A DNA stretch of 40,253 bases from NCBI GenBank assembly GCA_913061495.1, contig CAJXVG010000006.1, positions 1 to 40,253 on the forward strand, given 5' to 3'. Below, one piece after another: positions 9,451 through 30,497 of the stretch (positions are counted from its first letter, which is position 1; each line of letters starts with the position of its first letter). Source of the DNA: an uncultured Winogradskyella sp. Its GTDB lineage: Bacteria > Bacteroidota > Bacteroidia > Flavobacteriales > Flavobacteriaceae. Position numbers and translations under genes: made by a program. The notes under the pieces were generated by a model that was given only the letters and a program-made list of their open reading frames with translations, was not told where the DNA came from and searched no databases.

Positions 9451-9520
9451 AAAATCAATCAAAAAAAAATATACTGTTACATCAAGCATAGATGTTACAA
9501 AACAGAAAACCAATCAACAC

Positions 9521-10372: not shown

Positions 10373-13300
10373 ATGAAAAAAATAAATCTTGTTTTTCTCT
10401 CACTAATTTTCAGTGCTCAGATGTATGCTCAGAACGAGGCATCATTTTGGTATTTTGGTCAAAACGCAGGTTTGCGGTTTGATACCACTACTGGCACAGT
10501 TTCAGCAGTTACTGACGGCCAATTAAATACTTTAGAAGGCTGTACTTCTATTTCCGATGCAAATGGTGACCTTCTATTCTATACAGATGGACAAACCGTT
10601 TGGAACAGAAATCACCAAATAATGCAAAACGGCAATTATTTTGGTGGCACTGGTTTATTGGGTGATCCCTCAAGTACCTCATCAGGTCTTATTGTACCAA
10701 AACCAGAAGATCCAACACAATATTATATTTTCACGGTAGATGAACCTCATCATCAAAATGCAGCGGTCTTCCCAAACCAATTTAACGGAGCTTATGATTC
10801 TGGTGGAAGTGTACCAGGACAAGATGATGGCCTCAACAATGGTTTTAATTATTCGCTGGTTGACATGACTCTAAATGGCGGTTTAGGTGATGTAGTAGAT
10901 GCTGAAAAAAATATGCCATTGATATCCTATGATCCCTCGAGTACATTGGAGCTTCAATACAAATGTTCAGAAAAAATCACAGCAGTTCGTGCAGAAGATT
11001 GTTCTTCTATTTGGGTAATTACACATTTTGGCAATTCGTTTTATGCTTTTAGAATTGATGATTCTGGTGTTGAAACCACACCAGTAATTTCAACTGTTGG
11101 TCCATATATTCCTATTGAAGGATACAGGAGAAACGCTTTAGGTTATTTAAAAACATCACCAGACGCTACTAAATTAGTAGTTTCACATTTGGGAGAAGCA
11201 ACTGTGACAGCTGGTGAAGCTGGTGGAGGAGTTTATTTATTTGATTTTGATAATGAGACAGGGATAGTGTCAAACAGTACAGAGCTATATAGTCCTCAAA
11301 ATAACGACAGTCCTTACGGAGTTGAATTTTCTGCTGAAAATCGAAAAGTTTATGCTACAGTTGGGATTGGAGAATCTGGAAATGGTGCCAGCCAAGTCTT
11401 ACAATGGGATTTGGAAAGCGCAGATATACCTGCATCTATGCAAGTAATACATTCTTCGAGTACCATAAGTGCGGGTGCTCTACAATTAGGTGTGGACCGA
11501 AAAATTTACAGAGCCCAATTTAGTTTCAACAGTAATTCTAATGCTTCAAGATATTTGGGAGTTATAAATAATCCCGAAGCTGACGGTACCGCAGCAAACT
11601 ATAATGGACAAGGTGTTCTTTTGGATGTCAATGGATTCAACCAAAACACAAGTCGTATTGGTTTGCCACCATTTATACAATCCCTGTTTAATTCACAAAC
11701 CGATATTATAAGAAACGGCATAAGTACTACAGAACTAAAACTTTGCACAGGTGATAGCTACACTTTACTTGCTGATGACTACCCTACTGGAGACTATGTT
11801 TGGAGCTTTAACGGAACTCCATTGACAGAAACAACTAATGAGCTTTTTGTAAACACTCCAGGATTTTACGAAGTTTATATTGAACCTAATAATGGAGAGT
11901 GCCCAATTGAAGGAAGTGCTGTGGTAGGTATATTTGACATTCCTGTAGCAAATAATTTAACGGATATTAGTGTTTGTGATAATAATGCAAATGATGGCGT
12001 CTTTTCATTCGATTTTACATCAAAAAACAACGAAGCACTTTTAACACAAAATCCTTCGGAATATAACGTGCGTTATTTTGAAAGTGCTTTGGATGCAAAT
12101 AACCTTCAAAATGAAATCACCTTTCCTTATGAAAACACCACAAACCCACAAACTATTTTTGTGCGTGTGGATAACGGAAACAATACCAATTGCTTTGATA
12201 TTAATTCATTTGAACTTAAAATCTTCAACACTCCGCAAATTATTCAGATGAGCAACATAGAATTTTGTGATAACCAAGGAGATGAAACGGATGGTATTGC
12301 TACAATTGAACTTTCAGATTATATCCCAAACATTAGTGGAGCTCAAAACGATGTGAATGTTACTTTTCACCCAACACAAAGTGATGCAGATAGTAAGACT
12401 TCTCAGTTGCCATTTACATACACTAATTCAACAGCTTTTAACGAAACTATTTTTATAAGAATTGAAAACTCAACCAATACAGATTGTTACAATACAACCA
12501 GTTTTGAACTGATTATAAATGCGGCACCTATTGCCAATGACATCTCTATTTTGCAATGTGATGAAGATGGTATTCCCGAAGGCTTCACAACCTTCAACAT
12601 CAATGCATTTATAGATGAAATTACCAATGGAGAACCTGGAGTAACAACCAACTTTTATTTATCGTTAGCAGATGCTGAAAATCAAAACAACGAAATCAAT
12701 GCAGATGCTTTTGAGAATTTTTTCAATCCACAAACCCTTTATGTCAGAGTAGATAATACCTCAACAGGTTGTGTAAGTTATAGTGAAGTTACCCTTAACG
12801 TAAGCACCACTTCTTCTAATGATGCCAGCATACAAGCCTGTGATGACGATGGTACCGAAGATGGTTTTACTAGTTTTAACCTCAACACTGCCAATACTAT
12901 TGTTTTAGCTGGCGCACCAGCCGGCTTGGATTTATCTTATTATGAAACCTATAACGATGCGCTTTTAGAGATCAATCCCATTGAAAACACATTTACCAAT
13001 ACAGTTCCGTACAACCAAACAATCTACGGAAGAGTTGAAAATGCAAACGCTTGCTATGGTATAAGCGAAATAGAGCTCACCGTTTTTGAATTACCAAATA
13101 TTGAAACCGAATTTGAAACACAATACTGCCTCAACTTTTTTCCTGAAACTATTAGTTTAAATGGTGGTGTCATTAATGATTCACCAAGTAATTATTTTTA
13201 TCAATGGTCCACAGGTGAAAACACAGCAGAAATTCAAGTGAACGAACCTGGTACTTACTCAGTGAGAGTCAGCAATACCAATGGCTGTTTTAAAGACAGA

Positions 13301-13804
13301 ACTATTACTGTTTTGCCATCAAATATTGCAACCTTTACCAATATTGAAATTGTTGATGCCTCAAATAATAATTCTATATCTGTTTTTGTAAGTGGAGAAG
13401 GCGACTATGAATATGCATTAGATGATAGTAATGGACCGTATCAAGATAGCCCAATTTTTAATAATGTTCTACCAGGTTTATACACGGTTTATGTTCGTGA
13501 TAAAAACAATTGTGGCATTGTTGAAGAATTGGTTTCGGTAATTGGTTTTCCAAAATTCTTTACTCCAAATGGAGACAACGATAACGAATTTTGGCAAGTT
13601 AAAGGAGTATCTTCACAATTTCAAGTTAACAGTAACGTTTTAATTTTTGACCGCTATGGTAAACTCATAAAAGAATTAGATCCTTTAAGTCCTGGTTGGG
13701 ATGGCACTCTGAATGGAAAAAAATTACCATCTAGCGATTATTGGTTTAAGGTTACACTTGAAGACGGAAGAACATTTACAAGCCATTTTTCTCTCAAACG
13801 ATGA
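10373..13804 (+). CDS. T9SS type-B (gliding-motility C-terminal) secreted protein, propeller-like N-terminus
   Basis: Signal peptide; SFWYFGQNAGLRFDTTTG...LLFYTDGQTVWNRNHQIM propeller-type head; four repeats; CTD PKFFTPNGDNDNEFWQVKG...IFDRYGKLIKELDPLSPGWDGTLNGKKLPSSDYWF. Confidence 0.9.
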   Translation: MKKINLVFLSLIFSAQMYAQNEASFWYFGQNAGLRFDTTTGTVSAVTDGQLNTLEGCTSISDANGDLLFYTDGQTVWNRNHQIMQNGNYFGGTGLLGDPSSTSSGLIVPKPEDPTQYYIFTVDEPHHQNAAVFPNQFNGAYDSGGSVPGQDDGLNNGFNYSLVDMTLNGGLGDVVDAEKNMPLISYDPSSTLELQYKCSEKITAVRAEDCSSIWVITHFGNSFYAFRIDDSGVETTPVISTVGPYIPIEGYRRNALGYLKTSPDATKLVVSHLGEATVTAGEAGGGVYLFDFDNETGIVSNSTELYSPQNNDSPYGVEFSAENRKVYATVGIGESGNGASQVLQWDLESADIPASMQVIHSSSTISAGALQLGVDRKIYRAQFSFNSNSNASRYLGVINNPEADGTAANYNGQGVLLDVNGFNQNTSRIGLPPFIQSLFNSQTDIIRNGISTTELKLCTGDSYTLLADDYPTGDYVWSFNGTPLTETTNELFVNTPGFYEVYIEPNNGECPIEGSAVVGIFDIPVANNLTDISVCDNNANDGVFSFDFTSKNNEALLTQNPSEYNVRYFESALDANNLQNEITFPYENTTNPQTIFVRVDNGNNTNCFDINSFELKIFNTPQIIQMSNIEFCDNQGDETDGIATIELSDYIPNISGAQNDVNVTFHPTQSDADSKTSQLPFTYTNSTAFNETIFIRIENSTNTDCYNTTSFELIINAAPIANDISILQCDEDGIPEGFTTFNINAFIDEITNGEPGVTTNFYLSLADAENQNNEINADAFENFFNPQTLYVRVDNTSTGCVSYSEVTLNVSTTSSNDASIQACDDDGTEDGFTSFNLNTANTIVLAGAPAGLDLSYYETYNDALLEINPIENTFTNTVPYNQTIYGRVENANACYGISEIELTVFELPNIETEFETQYCLNFFPETISLNGGVINDSPSNYFYQWSTGENTAEIQVNEPGTYSVRVSNTNGCFKDRTITVLPSNIATFTNIEIVDASNNNSISVFVSGEGDYEYALDDSNGPYQDSPIFNNVLPGLYTVYVRDKNNCGIVEELVSVIGFPKFFTPNGDNDNEFWQVKGVSSQFQVNSNVLIFDRYGKLIKELDPLSPGWDGTLNGKKLPSSDYWFKVTLEDGRTFTSHFSLKR
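11958..13124 (+). repeat. Four tandem ~97-aa repeats (C-Asp-rich...GC modules)
   Basis: Module heads ISVCDNNANDG, IEFCDNQGDETDG, ILQCDEDGIPEG, IQACDDDGTEDG, each followed by a DA-rich strand and an RV.N...C strand. Boundaries approximate. Confidence 0.8.
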
Positions 13805-16269
13805 ATTTCAAATCTCCTTTTATTATTAAAAAAACATTCCTTTTTACAGTTCTATTCTGTTTAACATTTACAATAAATGCCCAACAACCTAACGACTGTC
13901 AAAATGCAGTTACTGTTTGTGGTAACTCAAGTTTTAGTTTGGATGTAAATGGCATTGGCACACAAGAGTTAAATAATTCAAATACGTGTTCTAGCCAAGA
14001 AAACAATAGTATTTGGCTAGAGGTAACCATTGCTAGTTCTGGCACATTAGCATTTACGCTGACTCCTAGCAGTAGCAGCATAACTGAAGATTACGATTTT
14101 TTTATATTTGGGCCAAACGTAAACTGTGGTAATATTGGGCAAGCTATACGATGCTCAACAACCAATCCTGCGGCAGCACACCAAGGTAATAATCTCACAG
14201 GATTGAACTCAACCGATCCAGATCCAGACGAAGGACCAGGTTCAGATGGTGATAGTTTTGTAAGTGCAATAGAGGTCTTAGCAGGTGAAAGCTACTTTAT
14301 AGTAATTGATAGACCTGTTGGCAACAGTCCTTTTTCTTTAGAATGGACAGGTACAGCTACGTTCCCAGACAATCCATCTAATCCAATGTTACAAAATCCT
14401 AGCTCTACTAGCTTACCAGATTTGAATGTGTGTGATGGGCTTACTCCTTTTGATGATAATATTACCCAAATTGACCTTACGCAATTAACCCAAGATATTA
14501 TTAACGGAGAGTCTGACGTCGCAGTAAGTTACCATGTTTCAGAAAGCGATGCCAACATCAATGTAAACCCTCTGGGAGATATTTTCAATAGTACATCGAG
14601 TTCTCAAAACATTTATATCAGAATTGAAAATACCACCAGCCACTGTTATATTCTAAATGATTTACAAATAAATATAACATCACTTTCAGATTTTAATACA
14701 CCAACCGATTACCAGCTATGTGATGATGATACAGATGGTGATGACCAAAACGGCATGAGAACCTTTGATTTTAATATTAAGACCCAAGAAATAACTAATA
14801 ATATTGTAGGTGCAAACTACTCAATTTCATATCATTTAAGTCAGAATGATGCAGAATCTGGCAATGCTCCATTACCCATAAACTATACTAATACCACTCC
14901 TACTCCAACAGAAATTTTTGTAAGGATTGTTGATAATGATCAAAGTTGTGTTGGCTTCACTTCATTCAATATCTTAGTTTCAGAAATACCTGTTGCCAAT
15001 GATATTACACTTTTACAATGTGATGAAGATGGCATACCTGAAGGCTTTACGACCTTCAACATAACTGAAGCTTTGAACGCTATTACCGGAGACAATACAA
15101 ATACTTCAGTAAAATATTACTTGTCTCAAAATGATGCAGAAAATCAATTAAACGAAATTACAAACCCAGAAGCTTTTGATAATTTCTTCAATCCTCAAAT
15201 TATTTACACTCGTGTGACCAACCCAAGTAGTGGTTGCATCAATTTTAGCGAAATTTCACTAGAGGCTAGTACAACAGCCTCTAACAATGCCAGTATGCAA
15301 GCTTGTGATGATGACGGAACTGAGGATGGTTTCACAGAGTTTAATTTGGTTGATGCTAACACTATTGTTTTGGCTGGCTCACCTGCTGGATTAAATTTAA
15401 TGTACTATGAAACCTATGAAGATGCACTGCTAGAAACCAATCCGCTTGGAAATACGTTTACCAATACAATTGCTTTCAATCAAACGATTTATGGTCGTGT
15501 AGAGAATTTAAACGGATGCTATGGGATTAGTGAAATTGAGCTTACTGTTTTTGAATTACCTAATATTGAAACCGAATTTGAAACAAAGTACTGTCTCAAC
15601 TTTTTTCCTGATACCATTATTTTAGATGGAGGAATAATCAACGACTCTCCAAGTAATTATTTTTACGATTGGTCCACAGGCGAAAACACCACAGAAATTG
15701 AAGTTAATGAACCAGGTACATATACTGTTAGAGTAACCAATACAAACGGGTGTTTTAAAGACCGAACTATTACAGTTTTACCATCTAACATTGCTACCAT
15801 AACAAATATTGAAGTTGTAGATGCCACTGAAAATAACTCTATTGCAGTAATGGTTACCGGAGAGGGAGATTATGAATATGCATTGAATGATATGAATGGT
15901 CCATATCAAGATAATCCTCTTTTTCAGAATGTAAAACCAGGTGTGTATACCGTTTATGTACGTGATAAAAATAATTGTGGTATCTCTGAAGCGCAAGTTT
16001 CGGTCATTGGATTCCCTAAGTTTTTTACACCAAATAGTGACACCGTAAATGACTATTGGCAGATTGATGGTATCTCATCTCAATTTCAAGCTAATTCCGC
16101 TATATTAATTTTTGATCGCTACGGAAAATTATTGAAAGAACTTGATCCGCTCAGTCCAGGTTGGGATGGCAATTATAATGGAGCTAAATTACCAACCAGT
16201 GATTATTGGTTTAAAGTAAAACTTGAAGATGGCAGAACCTTTACAAGTCATTTTACCCTGAAGCGATAA
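13801..16269 (+). CDS. T9SS type-B secreted protein, paralog of the preceding gene with a different head
   Basis: ATGA overlap with upstream CDS; N-term QQPNDCQNAVTVCGNSSFSLDVNG; four repeats; CTD PKFFTPNSDTVNDYWQIDG...IFDRYGKLLKELDPLSPGWDG. Confidence 0.9.
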   Translation: MNFKSPFIIKKTFLFTVLFCLTFTINAQQPNDCQNAVTVCGNSSFSLDVNGIGTQELNNSNTCSSQENNSIWLEVTIASSGTLAFTLTPSSSSITEDYDFFIFGPNVNCGNIGQAIRCSTTNPAAAHQGNNLTGLNSTDPDPDEGPGSDGDSFVSAIEVLAGESYFIVIDRPVGNSPFSLEWTGTATFPDNPSNPMLQNPSSTSLPDLNVCDGLTPFDDNITQIDLTQLTQDIINGESDVAVSYHVSESDANINVNPLGDIFNSTSSSQNIYIRIENTTSHCYILNDLQINITSLSDFNTPTDYQLCDDDTDGDDQNGMRTFDFNIKTQEITNNIVGANYSISYHLSQNDAESGNAPLPINYTNTTPTPTEIFVRIVDNDQSCVGFTSFNILVSEIPVANDITLLQCDEDGIPEGFTTFNITEALNAITGDNTNTSVKYYLSQNDAENQLNEITNPEAFDNFFNPQIIYTRVTNPSSGCINFSEISLEASTTASNNASMQACDDDGTEDGFTEFNLVDANTIVLAGSPAGLNLMYYETYEDALLETNPLGNTFTNTIAFNQTIYGRVENLNGCYGISEIELTVFELPNIETEFETKYCLNFFPDTIILDGGIINDSPSNYFYDWSTGENTTEIEVNEPGTYTVRVTNTNGCFKDRTITVLPSNIATITNIEVVDATENNSIAVMVTGEGDYEYALNDMNGPYQDNPLFQNVKPGVYTVYVRDKNNCGISEAQVSVIGFPKFFTPNSDTVNDYWQIDGISSQFQANSAILIFDRYGKLLKELDPLSPGWDGNYNGAKLPTSDYWFKVKLEDGRTFTSHFTLKR
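14410..15585 (+). repeat. Four tandem ~97-aa repeats (same family)
   Basis: Module heads LNVCDGLTPFDD, YQLCDDDTDGDDQNG, LLQCDEDGIPEG, MQACDDDGTEDG. Boundaries approximate. Confidence 0.8.
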
Positions 16270-16307
16270 ATTTAAAATATGTATTTTAGTTTCACTTAAC
16301 TACAATC

Positions 16308-18086
16308 GTGAAACACCAGCTTTACATATATTTTCTTCTGTTTAGTATAAGTTGTTCACTTTGTGCACAAGATGTATCCCTTTTTCAACAATTTAACGGA
16401 AGGTACGATTATGTTGCCATTGGCAATACACTAAATACTTTGGAAAACGGACCAGGTGCGAGTTGTAATATCTTAACCTCTTCATCTGCAAGTCTAAATC
16501 TAAGTGCCACTCAAAATGTGATTGCAGCCTATTTGTATTGGGCAGGCTCTGACCGCGGAGATTTTGAGATTACATTAAACGGAACTCCAATAACCGCTGA
16601 GCGCACCTTTAGCGATGCTTTGGATGGCAACCGTACATTCTTTGCTGCCTTTGCTGATGTTACAGATATTATATTAGATGAAGGTAATGCTACCTATACG
16701 ATTTCAGATTTTGATTTGTCAAGCATTATAGATCCTTATTGCCCAACTGGGACCAACTTTGGTGGTTGGGCCATTTCAATCATTTATCAAGATGACAACT
16801 TACCGCTCAATCAACTCAACGTTTACGATGGCCTACAAAGTGTACCAACATTTCTCAGCATTACGTTAGATAATTTGAACGTGCTCGATAACGAAGATGC
16901 TAAAATAGGTTTTATTGCATGGGAAGGTGATAGATCTTTAGCCGTAAATGAACAATTAACCATTAATGGCAATTTAATAAGCAATTTTCCCCTAAACCCA
17001 GCGAATAATGCCTTTAACGGAACCAATAGCTTTACGGGAGCATCAGATTTATATAATATGGATATTGATGTTTACAATATTCAGGATAATATTGATGTGG
17101 GAGACACTTCAGCAACAATTGCATTAACTTCTGGGCAAGACTTTGTAATGATAAACAATATCATAACCGTTCTCAACAGCCAATTACCAGATGCAACTAT
17201 AACACTAGATGATGAAATTGTTAATTGCGGCGACAATACTATCGAAGTGTTTTTCACTGTAGGCAATACTAATAGTACAGCAGTTTTGCCTGCCAACACA
17301 CCTATTGCTTTTTATGTTGATGGAAATTTAATTGGTCAAACCCAAACCACAAGTGATATTGGAATTGGTGAAAGCGAAAACAATTCAATTCTATTAACGG
17401 TTCCAGAAGACACAAATCCTAACTTCACCTTAGTAGCCACTGCAGATGATAATGGCTCTATGACAGGAATTGTTACTGAAACCAACGAAGAAAACAACAC
17501 AACATCTACCAACATTGAATTATTGGTGATTCCTGAAATTACAATATTACCAAACCTCATTGGTTGCAATGAAGGTTTTGAAACTTCACCCTTTAATTTA
17601 GTTGAAGCTTTGGATGGATTAAATTTTAATATAGACAATATATCTTTCTATAGAAATATACCTGATTTAGAAACTCAAAACAATGTTATTGACATTCCCC
17701 AATTGTACAACAACCTAACTAATCCTGAAACCATATTTGTACGACTGGAAAGTCCTCCATGTTACGAAATACTTCAGTTTGAATTAATTGTAGATAATTG
17801 CCCACCTAATATACCGGAAGGGTTTTCGCCTAACGACGACACGTATAATGATTGGTTTAATATTCAAGGCTTATACGATATTTTTACTGATCATAAACTT
17901 AAGATTTATAATCGTTATGGAGATATTGTTTTTGAAGGTGACAATAACAAACGTTGGTATGGCAAGGTTAACAGAGGATTGAACAATCACGGCAAACGAG
18001 TTCCTGTTGGCACCTATTATTACCTTCTAAACCTAAATGATCCCGATTATAAACTTATGGTAGGTTGGGTTTATGTCAATTATTAA
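16308..18086 (+). CDS. T9SS type-B secreted protein with CARDB-like segment
   Basis: GTG start; signal peptide; PDATITLDDEIVNCGDNTIEVFFTVGNTNSTAVLPANTPIAFYVDG (CARDB-like); CTD FSPNDDTYNDWFNIQG...IYNRYGDIVFEG. Confidence 0.85.
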   Translation: MKHQLYIYFLLFSISCSLCAQDVSLFQQFNGRYDYVAIGNTLNTLENGPGASCNILTSSSASLNLSATQNVIAAYLYWAGSDRGDFEITLNGTPITAERTFSDALDGNRTFFAAFADVTDIILDEGNATYTISDFDLSSIIDPYCPTGTNFGGWAISIIYQDDNLPLNQLNVYDGLQSVPTFLSITLDNLNVLDNEDAKIGFIAWEGDRSLAVNEQLTINGNLISNFPLNPANNAFNGTNSFTGASDLYNMDIDVYNIQDNIDVGDTSATIALTSGQDFVMINNIITVLNSQLPDATITLDDEIVNCGDNTIEVFFTVGNTNSTAVLPANTPIAFYVDGNLIGQTQTTSDIGIGESENNSILLTVPEDTNPNFTLVATADDNGSMTGIVTETNEENNTTSTNIELLVIPEITILPNLIGCNEGFETSPFNLVEALDGLNFNIDNISFYRNIPDLETQNNVIDIPQLYNNLTNPETIFVRLESPPCYEILQFELIVDNCPPNIPEGFSPNDDTYNDWFNIQGLYDIFTDHKLKIYNRYGDIVFEGDNNKRWYGKVNRGLNNHGKRVPVGTYYYLLNLNDPDYKLMVGWVYVNY

Positions 18087-18138
18087 AATTACTTCTTATT
18101 AATAAATGTTAATGTTTAATGCTTTTTATCGTATTTTT

Positions 18139-18169
18139 TTGTATTTCGTCTAAATAATTTTTATTTTTG
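18139..18169 (+). promoter_or_regulatory. Promoter candidate TTG-N20-TAnnTTTG
   Basis: TTG 18139-18141 and TATTTTTG 18162-18169 with 20-nt spacing, upstream of ATG 18242. Confidence 0.45.
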
Positions 18170-18241: not shown

Positions 18242-21200
18242 ATGAACCCTATCAAATATCCCTTAATACTCTTTCTATGCTTTATTTTTTCACAGTTGTC
18301 TGCACAACAAATTAGTATAGACAACAACATTTCAGTTGAAGATTTAATAGCAAATACCCTTATTCAGGGCTGTGTAGAAGTATCTGACATCTCCTCTCCA
18401 ATAAACGGTAACGTTAACGGTTTAGGAAGTTTTGGTTATTTTGAAAGTGGTGCTTCTAACTTTCCTTTTGAAAATGGGATTGTTCTCACCACAGGAAATG
18501 CTAATGCTGGCGGAAATGGTCAAAACAACACGGTACTAAATGATGGAAACAGCAGTTGGACAACCGATGCCGATTTAGAAACTGCGTTAGGAATTAGCGG
18601 TACCGTAAATGCTACGGCAATAGAATTCAATTTTCTATCGAGCTCAAATCAAGTGCAATTCAATTATATTTTAGCTTCAGAAGAATATTTTGGTAATTTT
18701 CCATGTGAATATTCCGATGGTTTTGCTTTTCTAATCAGAGAGGCAGGCACAGGAAACGCGTATCAAAATATAGCATTGGTGCCAGGAACAACAATTCCTG
18801 TAAATACAAATACAGTCCATGATGAAATTGTTGGGTTTTGCGATGCAGAAAACGGACAATACTTTGAAGGTTATAATATAGGAGACACTAATTACAATGG
18901 TAGAACGAGTGTGCTTTCTGCAACAGCTACCATACAGCCTAATGTGCAATATCAAATTAAATTGGTGATTGCAGACCAAACAGATCAAAATTATGATTCG
19001 GCAGTTTTCATTGAAGGGAATTCTTTTAATGCGGCTGTAAATTTGGGAGAGGATATCATGACATGTGCTAGCAATGTATTGCTAAATGGTGATATTGCTA
19101 ATCCACAAGCCGTGTATTCATGGTATTTTAATAACACCTTAATTTCGGGTGCAACACAACCTACTTTCGATGTTTTAGAATCTGGAAACTATAGAATTGA
19201 AGTTGATATTCCATTAGCAGGCAGTACTTGTGTAATTGAAGACGATGTTAATATAACCTTGAGTTCTACACAATCTTCTGACCCAATTACAGATTTTCAA
19301 CTTTGTGATGATATAAGTGATGATGGTATTGAAACATTTGATCTTTCAACTAAAAACACAGAAGTCTTGGCATCAGTGCCAGCATCAAACTATATGATAT
19401 CTTATCATTACTCTGAAACTGAAGCACAAAACAATTCTAATAGTATTGTAAACCCAATTCAAAACTCAACCAACCCAGAAACCATTTATGTAAGGATTGA
19501 AGATATTGATAATGGTTGTTTAGCGTTTTCAAACTTTGATTTAATTGTTAATCCTTTACCAACTATAACAGATCCAACACCTTTACAAGTCTGTGACGAC
19601 CAAACTGCAGATGGTTATACAGCGATAGATTTGAGTGTTAAAAATGACGAAATTACAAATGGCCAAACCAATCTTATAGTAAATTTTCACACTACTGCTG
19701 CAGATGCAGCTTCTGGCAGTAATCCATTGCCTCTACCCTATGTAAATACCAATGTAAACGAACAGGTTTTTGTAAGTGTGCAAAACCAGCAAACTGGTTG
19801 CTTAACTACTACAAGTTTGGATATAGAGGTTTTAGATAACCCAGTTATAAATAATGAAGAGCATTACATTGATGCTTGTGATACAGACCATGACGGTTTT
19901 GCTAATTTCGATTTAACTTCTGTTATACCTAATATTCTTGAAGGGTTAACTGATGTATCAGTAACGTTTCATGAAAGTAACCAAGATGCAATTTCAGGAA
20001 CAAATGCCATAGCTGATGACACCAATTACGCTAACACCATTAATGAAGAACAAATAATTTATGTTAGGATTGAGGATGACACAACCGGTTGCGCTTCTGT
20101 GACTCCTATTGAAATTCATACAAATTTATTATTAACAGCCACCAATATTAATAATGCTACGCTATGTGATGTGTCTAATGATGGCACAGAGGAATTTAAC
20201 TTCTCTAATATCGCTACAGGCATTATAAATGATTTGGAAAATGTATCGGTTGTTTTTTACGAAACGGAAGCAGATCGTACCAACCAAAGCAATCCAATTG
20301 ACCAAAATGTACCTTATGAACCACAAAGCAATCCACAAACAATTTATCTGGCTTTAGAAAGCGATACTTGTGCTGATGAAGCTGAAATTGAATTGGTTCT
20401 ATTGCCTGTGCAGGAATTCGATCCTATTGACGACCAAACAGTCTGTGATGAAGATCAAGACGGATTTACATCTACAGATTTATCTCAATTTGATATTTTG
20501 GTTACCCAAGGTCAGTCTGGTTTTATAGTGAGTTATTTTGCTTCTGAAAATGATGCCTTATCCAACACCAATGCGTTACCAAATTTTTATACCAACACTA
20601 CTAACCCGTTTACCGTATATCCAAGAATACAAGATGTAGGTACTGGCTGTTTTGACGTTAATAATTTTACTGTTACAGTTTTAGAAGCTCCAATAACGAC
20701 CGCTCCATCTCCAATATTAATGTGTGATAACGACCAAGATGGATTTTCCACAATTAATCTTCAAAATGTTATTTCTGAAGTTGTTTCAGATACCAATGAG
20801 CGATCTATAACTTTTTACAATAATCAATCAGATGCAGATCAAGGCTTAAACCAAATAAATAATGAAACGGCTTATTCAGCGCAAACGGAATCTGTTTTCA
20901 TTAGAGTGGAAAATACTGTAACAGGTTGTCACTCCACTGAAATTTTATCAGTAACAATTAACACATTGCCTGTTTTTCAACCGATTAGTAATTATAAAAT
21001 TTGCGAAGATAATAGTGATGGTTTTGGGGATTTTATATTCAATACAAAAGATGTTGAAATCTTGAACGGCCAAAGTGGAAAACAAGTATTTTACTACCTC
21101 AACCAAACAGACGCAGACAATCGCACAAACGCAATTGACAAATCCTCTATTTATCAAAACACAAGCAATCCACAAACCATTTTTGCTAGAGTTGAAAATA

Positions 21201-23068
21201 TAACAGATGAAAATTGCTATGGCACATCAAATTTTATAGTTGAAGTTGGCAGTAACCCGGAATTTAATACACCTTCAGATTGGTTTGTTTGTGATGATGT
21301 TGAAAATGATGGTTCCGAGATGTTTGACTTTTCAGAAAAAATTACGGAAATATCCGAAGGAATTTCAGATGATGTAAACATTACATTTTACACCTCTCAA
21401 TTTAATGCAGAAAATAGTATCGATGCCCTACCGCTTCAATTTGAAAATACGGTAAATCCTCAGCAAATATATGTTCAAATAGACAATGGTACCATTTGTA
21501 ATTCAATCACTTCTTTTGAACTGAATGTGGTTCAAGTTCCAGAAGTAAACGAAGCACAACCTATAATTGAGTGCGATACAGATTACGATGGCTTTACTGA
21601 ATTTGATTTAACTGTTGCCGAATTCAATGTATTAGATGTAAGACAAGATGACATTGAAATCTCTTATTTTGAAAATGCAGTAGATGCTGATTTAGATGCT
21701 AATGCTATTTCTACCCCTGAAACTTACATCAACACCAGTAATCCGCAAACAGTTTTTATAAAAGTGACTAATACCATATCTAACTGTAGCGTAACCCTTC
21801 CCTTTGATTTAATAGTGAATTTACCCCCAGCCATAAATGATTTTCAGGTTTACGATATATGTGCTAATGCAAACAATAGTTTTGACCTTACAGAAATTAA
21901 TGAAGCATTAATGGACGAGAGTTTTAATGTACTGTTCAGTTACTTTATAAACGAAGCTGATGCGCTTTCAAACACAAATGCTTTAGATCAAAACTATACG
22001 TACACAACTAATAACGACTCACTTTACGCACGTGTAGAGTTCAGTACAACACATTGTTATGCAATCTATCCATTTATCTTAAATGTAAACGAGCTACCAA
22101 ATGCAAATCAACCTAATAACTTAATTGCTTGTGACGATAATTTTGATGGCCTACAGGAATTTTATTTAGCTCAGCAAAACAATATAATTTTGGGCAACCA
22201 AAACCCTAACCTATTCTCTGTAAGCTATCACAGTACGGAATTACAAGCCATTGAAAACAATACAGCTTTAGACATAAATTATTTTGCTTTTAACCATGAA
22301 GTGATTTATGCCAGAATTGAAAACAATACAACTGGCTGTTACGATATTACTCAATTTTCAACAATCATAAATCCGCTTCCAAATATAGATATTGAAGATC
22401 AGGTTATCTGTTTAGAGAACCTTCCACTTGTGGTTTCAGCAAATACAAACAATATAGCAGACCAGTATTTGTGGTCTACAGGAGCAACAACACCTGAAGT
22501 TGAAATTACTGAAATTGGCACATATTGGGTCACGGTCACAACTGAATTTGGTTGTGAAAACACACGTACTTTCAACGTTTCTGAATCTGAAGCTGCAACT
22601 ATAGAAGTTACGGAAACGGTTGACTTTTCAGACCCTAACAATATTACCGTGACCATTAGGGGTATAGGCAATTACCTTTATCAATTAGATGATAATGACC
22701 CACAAGATTCCAATGTTTTTGAAAATGTAGGCTTGGGCTACCATACACTTACAGTTATTGATCTTAACGGTTGCTCAGAGGTGACCGAAGAGGTTTTGGT
22801 TATTGACGCTCCAAAACATATGTCTCCAAACAACGATGGTGATTTTGATACTTGGCATATTAGTGGTGTGGAAACTTTACCTGGAACTATCATCCACATT
22901 TTTGATCGCTACGGAAAGCTTTTAAAACAAATTGGCTCCAACACACTAGGTTGGGATGGCACTTACAAGGGCAATAAAATGCCTGCTGGCGATTATTGGT
23001 TTTTAGCAGAAGTACAAAACGGAGATAAATCTTTTGAAGTAAAAGGACATTTTGCTTTGAGGAGATAA
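18242..23068 (+). CDS. Choice-of-anchor L domain, 11-repeat T9SS type-B secreted protein
   Basis: N-term FGYFESGASNFPFENGIVLTTGNA...FNYILASEEYFGNFPCEYSDGFAFLIRE; eleven ~94-aa repeats; CTD MSPNNDGDFDTWHISG...IFDRYGKLLKQ. Confidence 0.9.
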   Translation: MNPIKYPLILFLCFIFSQLSAQQISIDNNISVEDLIANTLIQGCVEVSDISSPINGNVNGLGSFGYFESGASNFPFENGIVLTTGNANAGGNGQNNTVLNDGNSSWTTDADLETALGISGTVNATAIEFNFLSSSNQVQFNYILASEEYFGNFPCEYSDGFAFLIREAGTGNAYQNIALVPGTTIPVNTNTVHDEIVGFCDAENGQYFEGYNIGDTNYNGRTSVLSATATIQPNVQYQIKLVIADQTDQNYDSAVFIEGNSFNAAVNLGEDIMTCASNVLLNGDIANPQAVYSWYFNNTLISGATQPTFDVLESGNYRIEVDIPLAGSTCVIEDDVNITLSSTQSSDPITDFQLCDDISDDGIETFDLSTKNTEVLASVPASNYMISYHYSETEAQNNSNSIVNPIQNSTNPETIYVRIEDIDNGCLAFSNFDLIVNPLPTITDPTPLQVCDDQTADGYTAIDLSVKNDEITNGQTNLIVNFHTTAADAASGSNPLPLPYVNTNVNEQVFVSVQNQQTGCLTTTSLDIEVLDNPVINNEEHYIDACDTDHDGFANFDLTSVIPNILEGLTDVSVTFHESNQDAISGTNAIADDTNYANTINEEQIIYVRIEDDTTGCASVTPIEIHTNLLLTATNINNATLCDVSNDGTEEFNFSNIATGIINDLENVSVVFYETEADRTNQSNPIDQNVPYEPQSNPQTIYLALESDTCADEAEIELVLLPVQEFDPIDDQTVCDEDQDGFTSTDLSQFDILVTQGQSGFIVSYFASENDALSNTNALPNFYTNTTNPFTVYPRIQDVGTGCFDVNNFTVTVLEAPITTAPSPILMCDNDQDGFSTINLQNVISEVVSDTNERSITFYNNQSDADQGLNQINNETAYSAQTESVFIRVENTVTGCHSTEILSVTINTLPVFQPISNYKICEDNSDGFGDFIFNTKDVEILNGQSGKQVFYYLNQTDADNRTNAIDKSSIYQNTSNPQTIFARVENITDENCYGTSNFIVEVGSNPEFNTPSDWFVCDDVENDGSEMFDFSEKITEISEGISDDVNITFYTSQFNAENSIDALPLQFENTVNPQQIYVQIDNGTICNSITSFELNVVQVPEVNEAQPIIECDTDYDGFTEFDLTVAEFNVLDVRQDDIEISYFENAVDADLDANAISTPETYINTSNPQTVFIKVTNTISNCSVTLPFDLIVNLPPAINDFQVYDICANANNSFDLTEINEALMDESFNVLFSYFINEADALSNTNALDQNYTYTTNNDSLYARVEFSTTHCYAIYPFILNVNELPNANQPNNLIACDDNFDGLQEFYLAQQNNIILGNQNPNLFSVSYHSTELQAIENNTALDINYFAFNHEVIYARIENNTTGCYDITQFSTIINPLPNIDIEDQVICLENLPLVVSANTNNIADQYLWSTGATTPEVEITEIGTYWVTVTTEFGCENTRTFNVSESEAATIEVTETVDFSDPNNITVTIRGIGNYLYQLDDNDPQDSNVFENVGLGYHTLTVIDLNGCSEVTEEVLVIDAPKHMSPNNDGDFDTWHISGVETLPGTIIHIFDRYGKLLKQIGSNTLGWDGTYKGNKMPAGDYWFLAEVQNGDKSFEVKGHFALRR
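19291..22410 (+). repeat. Eleven tandem ~94-aa repeats (same family)
   Basis: Heads include QLCDDISDDG, DACDTDHDG, TVCDEDQDG, LMCDNDQDG, IECDTDYDG, ACDDNFDG, with a regular ~283-nt spacing. Boundaries approximate. Confidence 0.85.
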
Positions 23069-23247
23069 AATATTTGCTAATCTTAGTAAATCTATAAAAC
23101 TCAATTAGCTGCTTTTCATCCTATTATATTTGTAATTCAACCTTTAAAACTTTAATTAATAAGTAATATTTTATACTTTCTATTGTTTAACGCAGAAAAC
23201 AGAATGCCCTAATGTTTTACTCGTAAACATTTACGAATGTATTACTT

Positions 23248-26200
23248 ATGAAGTCCAAAATATCTTTCTTATTTTTTGTTGCTATATTTTTCGGACAATC
23301 ATGTTTCTCCCAACAAATCACAACAGATAATTCTCAGACTTTAGAGCAATTAATTCAAAATAGTCTAGGTCAAAATTGTGTTGAAATTTCAAATATATCT
23401 TCTACAGTCAACGGCAATATCAATGGATTTTCAAGCTTTGGATATTTTGAGAGAGGATCATCAAGTTTTCCTTTTGAAAATGGAATTGCCTTAACAACAG
23501 GTAATATCAGCTCAGCAGGCAACACCTTAAATACCAGCTCACTAAACGAAGGTGACGACACTTGGGGAACTGATATTGATTTAGAAAACGCTCTTGGTAT
23601 TTCCCAAACATCAAACGCTACTTCAATTCAATTCAATTTTGTTTCTGTTGCCAACCAAATAGAGTTTAATTATATTTTGGCTTCGGAAGAATACCAACAA
23701 GAATATCCTTGTTTTTATTCAGATGGATTTGCATTTCTTATTCGTGAATCTGGTAGTAATGATTCGTTTTCAAATATCGCATTGGTTCCCGGAACATCAA
23801 TACCAGTTAACACAAATACGGTACATAATCAAATTGAAGGTTTTTGTGATGCGGAAAATGAAGTCTATTTTGAAGGTTATAATATTGGAGACACAAATTA
23901 CAATGGACGTACTGTGGTATTAACAGCAACAGCGAGTATAATTCCTAATACGGAATACGAAATTAAGTTGGTAATAGCAGATCAGAACGATACCAATTTC
24001 GATTCTGCTGTGTTTATAGAAGGAAACAGTTTTAATGCCACAGTAGATTTAGGTCCAGATATCAGTACCTGCGGACAATCTGTTACACTCAATGGTGATA
24101 TACAAAACTCCCAAGCATCATATCAATGGTTTAAGGATGATGTAGCCATTGAAAATGCAACAAACACAAGTTTTACTGCTACGGAAACTGGCACATACAG
24201 CATAGAAATTACCGTTCAACTTAACCAGACCTCATGTGTCATTGAGGACAGTGTGGACATTATTTTAAATTCCGAACAAACTTCAAATGAAATTTCAGAT
24301 TTTTCATATTGTGATGATAGTTCTAACGATGGAGTAGAAATCTTTAATTTAAGTCTTAAGGACAATGAGGTTTTAGCCTCAGTGCCACCATCTAATTACA
24401 ACATTAGTTACCATCTCAGTTCTAGCAATGCTCAAAACAACCAAAATCCAATAATAAACCCAATACAAAATACAAGCTCACCACAAACTATTTTTGTTAG
24501 AATTGAAGATACAAACTCAGGTTGTTTGGCATTCTCTACATTTAATTTAGTTGTAAACGAAAAACCAAATTTTGAGATACCAGATCCTATTGTGGCTTGT
24601 GAAAACTCTTTACTCGAAGGCACTACCCTCATTGATTTAACGCTTTCTGATGAGCAAATTATTGATGGGAATACTCACTTAAATATTAGCTATCATTTCT
24701 CTCAGTCTGAGGCAAATTCGGGTGACAATCCCATTACCTCTCCTTATTCAAATCCAAATACGTCCGAGACGCTTTACGTAAGAGTTACTGATAGTGAAAC
24801 CAGTTGTTTTTCTACAACAACTATAGATATTCAATTTCAAACTGGACCAGAAATTAGTACAGAACTTCAATGGATAAATGCTTGTGAACAAGATGAAGAT
24901 GGGTTTGAGTTCTTTGACCTTACGAGTATCATTGATGACCTTTTGCAAGGTTTAACAGATGTTACCGTAAGTTTTCATGAAACAAACGAAGAAGCCTTTA
25001 ACGATACAAATCCAATTACCGATTCTGAAAATTATGAAAATAATATTCAAGATTTTCAAGAAGTATATGTTCGTGTAGAGGACAATAATACAGGTTGTGC
25101 AAGTATTGCTCCCTTAGAATTACATACCAATGTGGTAATGACTGGTTTTATTACTAGTCCATACGGTATTTGTGACGACGTTTCCAATGATGGTATTGCT
25201 AATTTTGACCTGCTACTGGTTGAGGGCAGATTAGAAGATGAATACGACGGTTTTAATACTGTGTTCTATCTTACCGAAGAAGATAGAGATGCTAACCTTA
25301 ATCCATTAGATGAATCTGTACCAATCACTGTAACAAATAGTTTAACAATTTATGCCAATGTTTTTAGTGAAGGCTGTATAGAACCAGTAGATATTGTACT
25401 TGAGATTGACCCACCAGTTATTTTAGAACCTTTAAGTATTGACTACTGTGATGAAGATAACGATGGTGTTACCTCCATTACACTCAATAGTTTTAATGCT
25501 GTGGTAAGCCAAGGAGTTTCAGCTACCAATGTAAAATACTTTCTTACTGAAGCAGATGCCAACACTAATGAAAATATCCTTCCAAATATTATTACAAATA
25601 CCTCAAATCCACAACAACTATTTGTTAGGGTTACCAATGTACAGACCGAGTGTTATGACGTTACAACTTTAGATATTAATATTATTGGCGCACCTGAAAT
25701 TAATAATTTTCCCGATCCTATTTTAATATGCGATGACGATATGGATGGAATTTCATCTGTTAATCTTGAAACCAAAATACCAGATATTACAACCAATACT
25801 ACAGATCTTCAAATCACCTTTCATAATAATATTGAAACTGCAATTTCTGGCAATGATGAAATCAGTAATCCAGAGAACTACACAACAGCAACACAAACTA
25901 TTTTTACTAGAGTTGAAAATGAGACAACAGGTTGTTTCAGCATTTCTCAATTCACGGTTTTTGTAAATACATTACCACAATTTATTCCGATTTCAAATTT
26001 TCAAAATTGCGAAGCTGACCTAAGTGGTGTGGCAGATTTCTTTTTTAATACAAAAGATTCTGAAATACTTAATGGCCAGAACAATAAAGAAGTGCTGTAT
26101 TTTGAAAATGAAAGTGATGCTCAGGCAGGTATAAATCAAATAGATAAATTTTCTGCATACCAAAACACATCAAACCCACAAACCATCTTTGTCCGTGTAC

Positions 26201-28062
26201 AAAATTTAAGCAATCCAAATTGTTTTGGCACATCATCGTTTCAACTCGAAGTTGGTACAATACCAAACTTTACGGAAGCTTCTGATATTTCTGTTTGCGA
26301 TGACATTAACAATGACGGTATAGAAACTATAGATTTAAACGAAACAATAAATGAAATTTCTGCCGGAAGCACAGAAGATTTAGATATTACATTTCACACT
26401 TCTGAAGAAGAAGCTAATATGGGAATCAATCCCGTACCAGTTAATTATACCAATTCAACAAATCCGCAATTTTTATTTGCCAGAATTGACAATGGAGAAT
26501 ATTGTTTTGGTATTTCGGCATTTCAAATCAACGTTATCTCTGTTCCAATTGTGAATGCCGTGAATTCGGTTGAAAGATGCGACGATGATTACGATGGAGT
26601 TTTAAATTGGGATCTCACTCTTTCTGAATTAGAGATTTTAGACGTAAGGCAAGTTAATATTGAAGTTTCCTATTTTAGGTCTATTGAAGACTCAGAAGCC
26701 AACCTCAACCCTATTTTAAATCCTGAAAATTTTACAAATACAACAAATCCGCAAACGGTTTATGTTAAGGTTAACAATACTATTAGTAATTGCTATGTAA
26801 ATGTTCCTTTAGAATTAAAAGTTAATTTACCACCAGCCATAAATACTTTTGAAGTTTTTGAAATCTGTGAAAACGACAACAATAATTTTGATTTAAATAC
26901 CATTAACGATGTTCTTGTTGATGTGGATTTTAACGTGCTGTTCCGTTACTTTACATCTGAAGCTGATGCAGTTGCAAATACAAATGCATTAGATTCTAAT
27001 TACCTATATACTTCAAATAACGATACTATATATGCTCGCGTAGAGTTCAGCACAACGCATTGTTTTTTTATATATCCTTTTGAGCTTCGTGTTAATCCGT
27101 TGCCAACGGCTAACCAACCTCCAGATCTAGTTGATTGTGATGATGATTTTGATGGTCTGTTGCGGTTCAATCTTCAAGAGCAAACTCCAATTATTTTGGG
27201 CTTTCAAAATCCAAATGATTTTTCAGTCACTTACTATTCCGAAGATAACACCTTAATTTCAGAACCTAATAGTTACCTTGCTTTTAATGGAGAAGTTATA
27301 ACAGCATATATTGAAAATAACACATCAGGTTGTTCTAATATAGTTCAATTCTCTACGATAGTGAATCGAAAACCATTTGTTGAAATTCCTGATCAAGTAG
27401 TATGTATAAATAATTTACCATTAGTGGTTTCGGCAAATACTAGCTATCCATCAGACAGTTATGTATGGTCAACAAATTCAACAGCACCTGAAATTGAAAT
27501 CACTGAAATAGGTACTTATAGTGTTACGGTCACTTCAGAATTTGGATGTGTCACCACAAGCACATTCAACGTTACAGAATCGGAATCTGCAACTATAGAA
27601 TTAACTGAAACGGTTGACTTTTCAGATCCTAACAACATTACAGTCACCATTGATGGTATCGGAAATTATCTTTATGTATTAGATGACGGAAATCCACAAG
27701 AATCTAATGTATTTGAAAACGTGGCTCTAGGCTTCCATACCGTAACCATTATAGATTTGAATGGTTGTGCAGAAGTCACCAAAGAAGTTGTTGTCGTTGA
27801 CGCTCCAAAGTTTTTCACTCCCAATAATGATAGAGAAAATGATACATGGCATATTATAGGTATTGAAACATTGCCAGGAAGTATTGTTTACGTTTTTGAC
27901 CGTTATGGAAAACTCATGAAACAATTAGGCTCAAGTACCAAAGGTTGGGATGGCACATACAACGGCAATAATATGCCTGCAAGTGATTATTGGTTTTTGG
28001 CAGAAATAAGACAAGGCCAAACTGCTTTTGATGTAAAAGGGCATTTTTCATTACGTCGTTAA
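23248..28062 (+). CDS. Choice-of-anchor L domain, 11-repeat T9SS type-B secreted protein (tandem paralog)
   Basis: Collinear with the preceding CDS throughout: same head, eleven repeats, same tail; CTD FFTPNNDRENDTWHIIG...VFDRYGKLMKQ. Confidence 0.9.
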   Translation: MKSKISFLFFVAIFFGQSCFSQQITTDNSQTLEQLIQNSLGQNCVEISNISSTVNGNINGFSSFGYFERGSSSFPFENGIALTTGNISSAGNTLNTSSLNEGDDTWGTDIDLENALGISQTSNATSIQFNFVSVANQIEFNYILASEEYQQEYPCFYSDGFAFLIRESGSNDSFSNIALVPGTSIPVNTNTVHNQIEGFCDAENEVYFEGYNIGDTNYNGRTVVLTATASIIPNTEYEIKLVIADQNDTNFDSAVFIEGNSFNATVDLGPDISTCGQSVTLNGDIQNSQASYQWFKDDVAIENATNTSFTATETGTYSIEITVQLNQTSCVIEDSVDIILNSEQTSNEISDFSYCDDSSNDGVEIFNLSLKDNEVLASVPPSNYNISYHLSSSNAQNNQNPIINPIQNTSSPQTIFVRIEDTNSGCLAFSTFNLVVNEKPNFEIPDPIVACENSLLEGTTLIDLTLSDEQIIDGNTHLNISYHFSQSEANSGDNPITSPYSNPNTSETLYVRVTDSETSCFSTTTIDIQFQTGPEISTELQWINACEQDEDGFEFFDLTSIIDDLLQGLTDVTVSFHETNEEAFNDTNPITDSENYENNIQDFQEVYVRVEDNNTGCASIAPLELHTNVVMTGFITSPYGICDDVSNDGIANFDLLLVEGRLEDEYDGFNTVFYLTEEDRDANLNPLDESVPITVTNSLTIYANVFSEGCIEPVDIVLEIDPPVILEPLSIDYCDEDNDGVTSITLNSFNAVVSQGVSATNVKYFLTEADANTNENILPNIITNTSNPQQLFVRVTNVQTECYDVTTLDINIIGAPEINNFPDPILICDDDMDGISSVNLETKIPDITTNTTDLQITFHNNIETAISGNDEISNPENYTTATQTIFTRVENETTGCFSISQFTVFVNTLPQFIPISNFQNCEADLSGVADFFFNTKDSEILNGQNNKEVLYFENESDAQAGINQIDKFSAYQNTSNPQTIFVRVQNLSNPNCFGTSSFQLEVGTIPNFTEASDISVCDDINNDGIETIDLNETINEISAGSTEDLDITFHTSEEEANMGINPVPVNYTNSTNPQFLFARIDNGEYCFGISAFQINVISVPIVNAVNSVERCDDDYDGVLNWDLTLSELEILDVRQVNIEVSYFRSIEDSEANLNPILNPENFTNTTNPQTVYVKVNNTISNCYVNVPLELKVNLPPAINTFEVFEICENDNNNFDLNTINDVLVDVDFNVLFRYFTSEADAVANTNALDSNYLYTSNNDTIYARVEFSTTHCFFIYPFELRVNPLPTANQPPDLVDCDDDFDGLLRFNLQEQTPIILGFQNPNDFSVTYYSEDNTLISEPNSYLAFNGEVITAYIENNTSGCSNIVQFSTIVNRKPFVEIPDQVVCINNLPLVVSANTSYPSDSYVWSTNSTAPEIEITEIGTYSVTVTSEFGCVTTSTFNVTESESATIELTETVDFSDPNNITVTIDGIGNYLYVLDDGNPQESNVFENVALGFHTVTIIDLNGCAEVTKEVVVVDAPKFFTPNNDRENDTWHIIGIETLPGSIVYVFDRYGKLMKQLGSSTKGWDGTYNGNNMPASDYWFLAEIRQGQTAFDVKGHFSLRR
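24292..27405 (+). repeat. Eleven tandem ~94-aa repeats (same family)
   Basis: Heads include SYCDDSSNDG, NACEQDEDG, DYCDEDNDG, LICDDDMDG, ERCDDDYDG, VDCDDDFDG, with ~283-nt spacing. Boundaries approximate. Confidence 0.85.
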
Positions 28063-28122
28063 TTAGCAAGAATTAATGATTTCTTTAACATCTTTTATCT
28101 GTTTTAGTTTCGGTTTGATGCT

Positions 28123-28130
28123 TATCTTTG
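28123..28130 (+). promoter_or_regulatory. -7 box candidate upstream of the last choice-of-anchor L gene
   Basis: TATCTTTGCA, 18 nt before ATG 28149. Confidence 0.45.
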
Positions 28131-28148
28131 CATTCCCTAAAATTAGAA

Positions 28149-30497
28149 ATGAAGCGATTACTCATTGTACTTGTTTTTTTGGTTTCGTTATTGAGCTATT
28201 CACAAAATATAACTGTTGATAGCCAAACCTTTACTCCGCAACAGCTCATAGAAGACATACTTATTGATAGCGACTGTATTACCAATGTTGTGGTAACCAA
28301 CGTAGTTGGAGGCAATTTTAATGGTTCAGACCAAAGCTATGGTTACTTTGATGCTTCAGGTACAACATTTCCTTTTGAAAGCGGACTTGTTCTAAGCACA
28401 GGCAGACTCGCCAATGTACCTGGCCCAAATAATAGCTTAAGTGACGACAATGCATCTAATTGGCAAGGTGACAACGATTTAGAATATGCTTTAAATGAAT
28501 CTGGCACAACAAATGCCACAATTTTAGAATTCGATTTTACTTCAGTAGCATCACAAGTAAGTTTTAGATATTTGTTTGCTTCAGAAGAATACCAAGAAAA
28601 CAACCCAAATAGCTGTCAGTTTTCAGATTTATTTGGTTTTTTAATTCGTCCTGCAGCTGGACAAGAACAATATGAAAATATTGCATTAGTACCAGACACC
28701 AATACTCCGGTTAAGGCTACAACGGTTACACCTGGAGTTCCTGGCAGTTGTCCTCCAGAAAATGAAACCTACTTTGGAAGTTATAACGGAACCAATTCAC
28801 CCATCAATTTTAATGGCCAGACAGCAGTTTTAACTGCAACCGCAAACATAAACCCTAACGAAACCTACCATGTAAAATTAGTCATTGCTGATGAACAGAA
28901 TTTTCGTTACGACTCAGCTGTGTTTTTAGAAGCTAGCAGTTTTCAATTATCAACAGATTTAGGACCAAACCGGTTAATTGCCAATGGAACTGCAGTGTGT
29001 GAAGGTGAAACATTAGACTTAAACGCATACCAAAATGGACAGAATACCTATGAGTGGTACAGAAATGGCGTCTTGGTACAAGGTGCATCTTTAGGTTGTG
29101 GCACTTGTGGCATTTATACTGTAACTGAACCTGGAACCTATACCGTAGAAGTTGGTTATGCCAATAATTGTATTTCTTATGGAGAAGTAGAGATAGAGTA
29201 TACACCAGCTCCTACAGCACAAGATGCGGTTTTAGTGGAGTGCGATGTTAATCAAGATGGGTTAACCACTTTTAACCTTTTTGATGCTGAAAGTGATTTA
29301 ACGGATAACGACAATGCATTGGCAGTTACAGCTTTCTACCTAACGGAAATGGATGCAATTGATACCATGGACCCTATTCAAAATTCGACAGAATTTCAAA
29401 ACACAAGTCCATTTCAAGTGGTTTATGCCAGAATTGTGAATCAAGCAAATTGCTTTGATGTTGCAGAATTAGAACTTCAAACTTCAAATAATACATTAAA
29501 TATTCCCGATTTGGGAGCCTGTGATGGAGATATTCAAGATGGTTTTGCCGATTTTACTTTAAGTGATATTAGAGCATCCATTGTGAATCAAATCCCAACA
29601 GGTGCTGATGTTATTTATTACGAAACAGAAGCAGATGCATTTAATGAAAGTAATGCATTACCAAACAACTACGAAAATACAATTGCAGATTCTCAAATTC
29701 TGTATGTAAAAGTAGAAAGCAACAATCAATGTTTTAGCATTTCAACCGTAACTCTAAATGTGCTTTATACTCCTGTTTTAGAGGAGGATAAAACGGTTTA
29801 TTATTGTACTAATACTTTTCCTGAAACTATTACTATTTTTGGTGGTGTGCTTAATGATTCACCTAACAACTATTTTTATGAATGGTATTTTAACGGTGTA
29901 CTAACCGACGTAACGACCTTATTTAACGACGTTAATGAAGCAGGAACTTACTCAGTTACCGTTACAGACCCTAACGGCTGTTCTTCCTCGCGTACAATTA
30001 CCGTCTTGGCGTCAAATACACCAACCATTGAAAGTATTGAAGTTTTTGGTATAGCTCCAAATAACAGCATTACAATAAACGTTTCTGGAGATGGAGTTTA
30101 CGAGTATGCTTTAGATGACAGTGAAGGTTTATATCAACAAAGCAATGTATTTACTAATGTTTCTAGAGGCTTTCATACCATTCATATCAACGACTTAAAT
30201 GGTTGTGGTATTACAGAAGAAACTATATTGGTTTTAGGATTTCCAAAATTCTTTACACCCAATGGAGATACTGTAAATGATACTTGGCAAATTTTAGGTT
30301 TTAGCGATCAATTCAATGAGCTAGAATCCATTCATATTTTTAACCGTTACGGAAAACTTATAACAGTGTTAAATTCATCTAACTTAGCATGGGACGGCAC
30401 TTTAAATGGTAAAGATTTACCAAGTAGCGACTATTGGTTTATTGCTAAGTTCCTTGATGGTAAAACCCACACTGGGCATTTTGCTTTAAAACGATAA
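28149..30497 (+). CDS. Choice-of-anchor L domain T9SS type-B secreted protein (2 repeats)
   Basis: Start trimmed to MKRLLIVLVFLVSLLSYSQ; FGYFD/SYGYFDASGTTFPFESGLVLSTG...FRYLFASEEYQENNPNSCQFSDLFGFLIR; two repeats; CTD PKFFTPNGDTVNDTWQILG. Confidence 0.9.
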   Translation: MKRLLIVLVFLVSLLSYSQNITVDSQTFTPQQLIEDILIDSDCITNVVVTNVVGGNFNGSDQSYGYFDASGTTFPFESGLVLSTGRLANVPGPNNSLSDDNASNWQGDNDLEYALNESGTTNATILEFDFTSVASQVSFRYLFASEEYQENNPNSCQFSDLFGFLIRPAAGQEQYENIALVPDTNTPVKATTVTPGVPGSCPPENETYFGSYNGTNSPINFNGQTAVLTATANINPNETYHVKLVIADEQNFRYDSAVFLEASSFQLSTDLGPNRLIANGTAVCEGETLDLNAYQNGQNTYEWYRNGVLVQGASLGCGTCGIYTVTEPGTYTVEVGYANNCISYGEVEIEYTPAPTAQDAVLVECDVNQDGLTTFNLFDAESDLTDNDNALAVTAFYLTEMDAIDTMDPIQNSTEFQNTSPFQVVYARIVNQANCFDVAELELQTSNNTLNIPDLGACDGDIQDGFADFTLSDIRASIVNQIPTGADVIYYETEADAFNESNALPNNYENTIADSQILYVKVESNNQCFSISTVTLNVLYTPVLEEDKTVYYCTNTFPETITIFGGVLNDSPNNYFYEWYFNGVLTDVTTLFNDVNEAGTYSVTVTDPNGCSSSRTITVLASNTPTIESIEVFGIAPNNSITINVSGDGVYEYALDDSEGLYQQSNVFTNVSRGFHTIHINDLNGCGITEETILVLGFPKFFTPNGDTVNDTWQILGFSDQFNELESIHIFNRYGKLITVLNSSNLAWDGTLNGKDLPSSDYWFIAKFLDGKTHTGHFALKR
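29215..29795 (+). repeat. Two tandem ~96-aa repeats (same family)
   Basis: Heads LVECDVNQDG and LGACDGDIQDG. Boundaries approximate. Confidence 0.75.

Follow-up and report, generated by a model that had tools for sequence, protein, structure and literature searches.

Introduction

Cargo of the type IX secretion system (T9SS) that carries a type-B sorting domain appears to be anchored by binding PorP-like barrels (PMC9143113). In Flavobacterium johnsoniae the orphan PorP/SprF-like shuttle Fjoh_1677 co-precipitates with three such C-terminal domains (CTDs), including those of Fjoh_1123 and Fjoh_4934, and promotes their secretion (PMC12618676). Here we describe an array of six consecutive plus-strand genes, P0001 to P0006, that bear one repeat family and whose products all end in a type-B CTD. 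The array begins at position 10373 of a 40,253-nucleotide stretch (hereafter the window) from an uncultured Winogradskyella sp., on contig 6 of a 3.2-Mb draft genome in 301 contigs. In our view the array probably represents an expanded cluster of adhesin-like surface stalks of set length, made of T9SS type-B cargo.

The kind of system, a T9SS type-B repeat adhesin, is already known. The SprB/SprF pair would share with the array its type-B CTD, its repeats and surface display via a PorP/SprF-like protein, but the shuttle gene of SprB is adjacent, and a separate SprF orthologue exists in the array genome. Membership of the SprB type was rejected, as no array protein has a Pfam SprB-repeat match and no PorP gene is adjacent. 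A second relation is to GhpA, the Aureispira grappling-hook protein (PDB 9flp and relatives), whose C-terminal immunoglobulin (Ig) domain and type-B CTD are profile-alignable (E 2.8e-31) and whose Ig-like chain ranks first by fold among the PDB matches of our module model. GhpA, known here from PDB entries only, differs in being 5898 amino acids (aa) long and in having no sequence match to the module profile; the relation is one of common fold and sorting signal, not of common modules or function.

What is new is the module family, which is uncurated: a common repeat with no annotation and no Pfam entry, of which each genome in this genus has 24-133 copies, and which is tied to type-B cargo. 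As experiments in F. johnsoniae have identified the shuttle of such cargo, the module can be tested in a tractable strain. The interesting part is the combination of fixed copy numbers with growth in steps of three, which raises the questions of whether stalk length matters and why the steps are threes.

The repeat module

An iterated profile hidden Markov model of the module converges on exactly 33 copies, distributed 4-4-1-11-11-2 over the six genes, with E-values (Z=1000) from 1e-28 to 2e-15; shuffled versions of the six proteins, 120 in all, gave listed domain scores of about 0 bits. The first-pass annotation, which had read one module family in these numbers, was right on both counts and in its coordinates.

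The modules of the array are 90-101 aa long, and all 33 share two invariant cysteines. Among 2036 distinct modules from relatives, cysteine occupies profile positions 8 and 76 in 100% (rounded), and 1954 of the 2036 have exactly two. Two invariant cysteines in an exported protein argue for one intramodular disulfide, which would close each module.

By sequence the family stands apart, and the match to a characterised domain family that would have refuted the first-pass annotation did not come up: when the 33 modules were scanned singly against Pfam, no family was matched by more than one of them and none convincingly, an NCBIfam scan of the whole array proteins gave nothing convincing over the module regions, the module profile had no match among PDB sequences, and literature searches by the annotation terms of the repeat gave nothing useful. 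By fold it falls into a general class. Three tandem modules of P0004 (modules 5-7, modelled by AlphaFold2 with 64 orthologous rows) reached a mean predicted local distance difference test score of 94, and the top PDB neighbours of this model in Foldseek were tandem Ig/cadherin chains and Aureispira GhpA (E about 1e-9, probability 1.00). The module is therefore predicted with high confidence to be an Ig-like or cadherin-like beta-sandwich chained in tandem, in line with the extracellular chain of domains, or stalk, proposed in the first-pass annotation.

An acidic loop of the module, CD.D.DG, is similar to the calcium loop Dx[DN]xDG, which belongs to a reviewed family of motifs (PMC3123361). 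In its strict form the motif was present in 12 of the 33 modules of the window and, family-wide, in 621 of 2036, versus 16 in shuffles, so that it is enriched but not universal; calcium is possible for a subset of modules at most, and a calcium-clamped stalk was rejected as a general model.

The six genes

P0001 (10373-13804) encodes a signal peptide, a head of ~526 aa with no Pfam or NCBIfam match, four tandem modules (11951-13102), two further domains and the CTD. P0002 (13801-16269) has a head of ~200 aa, four tandem modules (14407-15567) and the CTD, and the last 423 residues of P0001 and P0002, modules 3-4 included, are 76% identical. P0003 (16308-18086) combines a weakly CARDB-like head with a lone module (17541-17810) and a divergent CTD subtype. 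P0004 (18242-23068) and its tandem paralogue P0005 (23248-28062) each have a choice-of-anchor L head, eleven tandem modules (19280-22387 and 24286-27381, respectively) and a CTD; they are 56% identical over their full length with all eleven modules in register, which indicates that one 11-mer was duplicated as a whole gene. P0006 (28149-30497) has a choice-of-anchor L head, an Ig-like domain, two tandem modules (29214-29780), two more beta domains and the CTD. By sequence comparison the copy numbers of the six genes are not independent, a correction to the first-pass annotation.

The heads of P0004, P0005 and P0006 match the choice-of-anchor L model (NF038133) at E 1e-43 to 1e-47; the model as listed is silent on function, and a literature search on the domain gave no paper.

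Secretion and the shuttle

All six array proteins match both CHU_C (PF13585) and the type-B T9SS sorting domain TIGR04131 above cut-off, which bears out their earlier assignment to type-B cargo. P0003 passes the TIGR04131 cut-off only just, its CTD scoring 40 bits versus 104-119 for the others. Sec signal peptides, read by eye from the translations, are present in all six, with a charged start, a hydrophobic stretch and an A/S-Q ending. The CTD of P0003 is 27-35% identical to those of its array neighbours and 47% to that of a protein encoded on contig C16; no PorP gene adjoins P0003 or this similar gene.

The genome also encodes SprA (SprA_N within a 2425-aa frame on contig C5) and holds seven PorP/SprF matches, none of them on the array contig. 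Six adjoin CTD genes, and the seventh is an orphan on contig C278, which is 2.6 kb long and has no CTD gene on it. A further gene of the same genome, on contig C8 (L145, 1574-7225), encodes a 1883-aa CTD protein with three modules and is followed by its own PorP/SprF gene, so that the module is also found in cargo with a dedicated shuttle gene. Three contig ends (the end of C5, the start of C97 and the end of C142) lie in or beside more module genes (L146, L150 and L143), two of which are cut. Module repeats thus seem to be where the assembly breaks, and the 46 modules counted in the genome probably understate the true number.

Our comparison genome, a single contig of 6,096,872 bases, was identified as F. 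johnsoniae by its SprA, which is 100% identical to the F. johnsoniae SprA of PDB 6h3i over 484 aa. Its module-bearing type-B proteins are of 1097 aa, with four modules, and of 784 aa, with two; a seventh match lies in an 889-aa frame at 1.45 Mb. No PorP gene is adjacent to the genes of the 1097-aa and 784-aa proteins, which together with that of a 730-aa protein are the clear CTD genes without an adjacent PorP; nor is there one beside a weaker CTD match located at 3.88 Mb or beside two further matches under the cut-off. Conversely, one PorP, at 1,946,097, has no CTD gene beside it, and it is the reciprocal best match of the orphan PorP on C278 (57% identity, the next at 31%). Coordinate interpolation, in which we used what we take to be the locus tag of sprA, suggests that the 1097-aa protein is Fjoh_1123 and the 784-aa protein Fjoh_4934; we take the PorP at 1,946,097 to be Fjoh_1677.

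These two proteins are among the closest known relatives of the array. They share with it the same module (four and two copies), the same class of CTD and the lack of an adjacent PorP, and the Fjoh_4934-type gene adjoins the same ATP-binding cassette (ABC) transporter. Their CTDs are 47-57% identical to those of P0001, P0002, P0004, P0005 and P0006, and 31-35% to that of P0003. They differ in being separate single genes with two or four modules, whereas the array has six clustered genes, two of them with 11.

The published F. johnsoniae experiments bear on the possibility that the array proteins are gliding adhesins, which would travel on the helical T9SS track as SprB does and serve mainly in motility. 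A SprB/SprF-type pair is present in this genome, on contig C74, and Fjoh_1123, Fjoh_1720 and Fjoh_4934 are listed by the authors as directed to the gliding machinery; the Fjoh_1123-CTD fusion, however, formed mostly static surface foci and moved helically in 3% of cells (PMC12618676). The shuttle is moreover a different PorP from SprF. We know of no motility phenotype for these proteins, and we regard a mainly motile role as unlikely.

Module number in relatives

We compared the array with those of 10 genomes of the same genus, picked for kinship. Genes of the P0001 type have four modules in 10/10 genomes, the P0002 type four in 8/8, the P0003 type one in 10/10, the P0004 type 11 in 10/10 and the P0006 type two in 7/7. 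When 79 named loci are taken together with the same-genus genomes, 83 of 89 P0004-type genes have 11 modules, a set that is biased to 11-mers because it was gathered by similarity to an 11-module query, as the neighbouring genes were not. The 11-module orthologue of P0004 is conserved across Flavobacteriaceae. P0005-type paralogues have 11, 14 or 17 slots only; some first counted as having 10 modules proved to hold a diverged eleventh slot with both cysteines, and are counted here as 11.

Modules in the same slot are on average 50% identical between species and those in different slots 31%, which indicates that the slots are individually conserved and not homogenised. By these comparisons copy number is fixed per gene between species, and the stalks do not look freely adjustable.

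The first-pass annotation had instead read the order-of-magnitude spread in copy number as a sign of length-tunable stalks, in which free recombinational change of module number would adjust their reach. Counts do differ among the genes of one array, and versions with 14 and 17 modules exist, one of them (L090, below) so recent that recombination must still be adding modules; but orthologues keep their 11, 4, 4, 1 and 2, the slots are conserved one by one, and long paralogues come in three sizes. Between species this reading is largely refuted, and we give it little credence.

Changes in steps of three

Changes in count are confined to the P0005-type paralogue, or to apparent recombinants with it, and come in threes. 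The last modules of the 14- and 17-mers show offset-3 similarity of about 41-61%, versus about 31%, indicating that a block of three modules was duplicated. An ancestral period of three within the 11-mers was rejected, since no offset stands out there (about 32% identity at most offsets).

About 11 changes are required to account for the labels 11, 14 and 17, both on a tree of heads plus tails and on one built from modules 1-8. In the second tree, branches with good support force seven changes for the 11 group and eight for the 14 group; this tree omits a 17-mer (L074) and a 13-mer (L079) that seem to be other proteins, given a very long branch and a 2466-aa frame, respectively. Three genes (L095, L096 and L089) have P0004-type heads, with part of their last six modules closest to 14-mer paralogues, and look like recombinants with a P0005-type paralogue. 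In the 17-module gene L090 (16995-23519), modules 10-12, 13-15 and 16 agree unit by unit at 97-100% protein identity; the expansion is plainly very recent, an assembly artefact being less likely.

A neutral account is enough for this pattern: one three-module duplication, followed by in-register exchanges, would give 11, 14 or 17. A more speculative proposal, to which we assign a rather low probability, is that module number, fixed slot by slot, is a selected property and that a group of three modules makes up a genuine unit of structure or function; 11, 14 and 17 would then be the only viable lengths, and related heads would stand at quantised heights. Such a unit could be, for example, one superhelical repeat or a set of three alternating interface types.

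Proposed model

We favour surface stalks of set length, assembled as follows. Each protein would be exported by the Sec pathway, its modules each closed by their disulfide. The type-B CTD would then pass the T9SS translocon and be collected by an orphan PorP/SprF-like outer-membrane barrel of the Fjoh_1677 type, encoded elsewhere; such shuttle use has been shown for the F. johnsoniae relatives, and we infer it for the array by homology. The C-terminal end would keep the protein attached to the surface, mostly static and perhaps with a minority on the gliding track. Chained in tandem, the Ig-like modules would keep the N-terminal head, likely the ligand-binding part, at a distance from the outer membrane. 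A cell would in this way display heads at several fixed distances, set by 1, 2, 4 or 11 modules, and by 14 or 17 in some relatives. If an Ig-like module measures ~4 nm, 11 of them would reach about 40-50 nm. Stalk geometry, binding by the heads and adhesion are all put forward by inference.

Several points weigh against the model. The Fjoh locus tags were interpolated from coordinates, and Fjoh_1123 tagged at its native locus gave no signal (PMC12618676). The heads of P0001-P0003 belong, by our scans, to no confident family, and P0003, given the different subtype of its CTD, may rely on a different shuttle. Whole-chain template modelling scores in Foldseek were low (0.2-0.4), as is possible for tandem chains with differing hinge angles, and it is the fold class alone that is supported.

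Lateral assembly into a surface-layer (S-layer)-like coat, or release into a biofilm matrix, would suit several similar Ig-chain proteins from one cluster and the Foldseek matches to the S-layer Ig chains Sap and EA1 (E about 1e-10 to 1e-11), but these are generic Ig-chain matches, no S-layer anchoring domain was found, and a type-B CTD suggests that the proteins are anchored singly on PorP barrels (PMC9143113). We think this explanation improbable.

Locus history and distribution

The module was present in 38/41 other genomes drawn from Flavobacteriaceae and in 7/8 genomes from a second family of the order; beyond these it is sporadic. In most relatives whose locus reaches that far the array is preceded by an ABC transporter pair (8533-10345 in the window), and uvrB often adjoins its other side. 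The synteny that the first-pass annotation had proposed to examine is thus seen as the ABC transporter beside the array across the Flavobacteriaceae sampled. Most Flavobacterium genomes examined have the same transporter followed by a single two-module P0006-type gene; two have the P0006-type gene and a two-module gene of 1483-1487 aa after the transporter, and one has other module genes there. The single-gene Flavobacterium locus and the distribution of the module point to expansion of a small ancestral locus, and the six-gene array is probably such an expansion in Winogradskyella-type genera.

Neighbouring genes

The transporter pair, the conserved left neighbour of the array locus, consists of an ABC transporter ATPase (8533-9450, plus strand) and an ABC-2 type permease (9428-10345, plus strand) directly 5' of the array, in relatives as well. 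Even in Flavobacterium the pair remains adjacent to this locus, and the first cargo gene follows almost without a gap. Identification of the ATPase as GldA was rejected (174 bits versus a cut-off of 402). To the right, uvrB (30573-32579, plus strand) is the conserved neighbour in Winogradskyella-type genera and lies outside the system.

Within the array, a Bacteroidota-type promoter-like match, TTG-N20-TATTTTTG (18139-18169, plus strand), lies 5' of P0004; it is a pattern match only. Further along the window, and read by eye, 35671-38501 encodes a BlaI-like regulator and, after it, a BlaR1/M56-like protein that includes a TonB-plug-like segment, and 38572-39822 (minus strand) encodes what may be a secreted endonuclease-I-like protein whose C-terminal sorting region is type-A-like.

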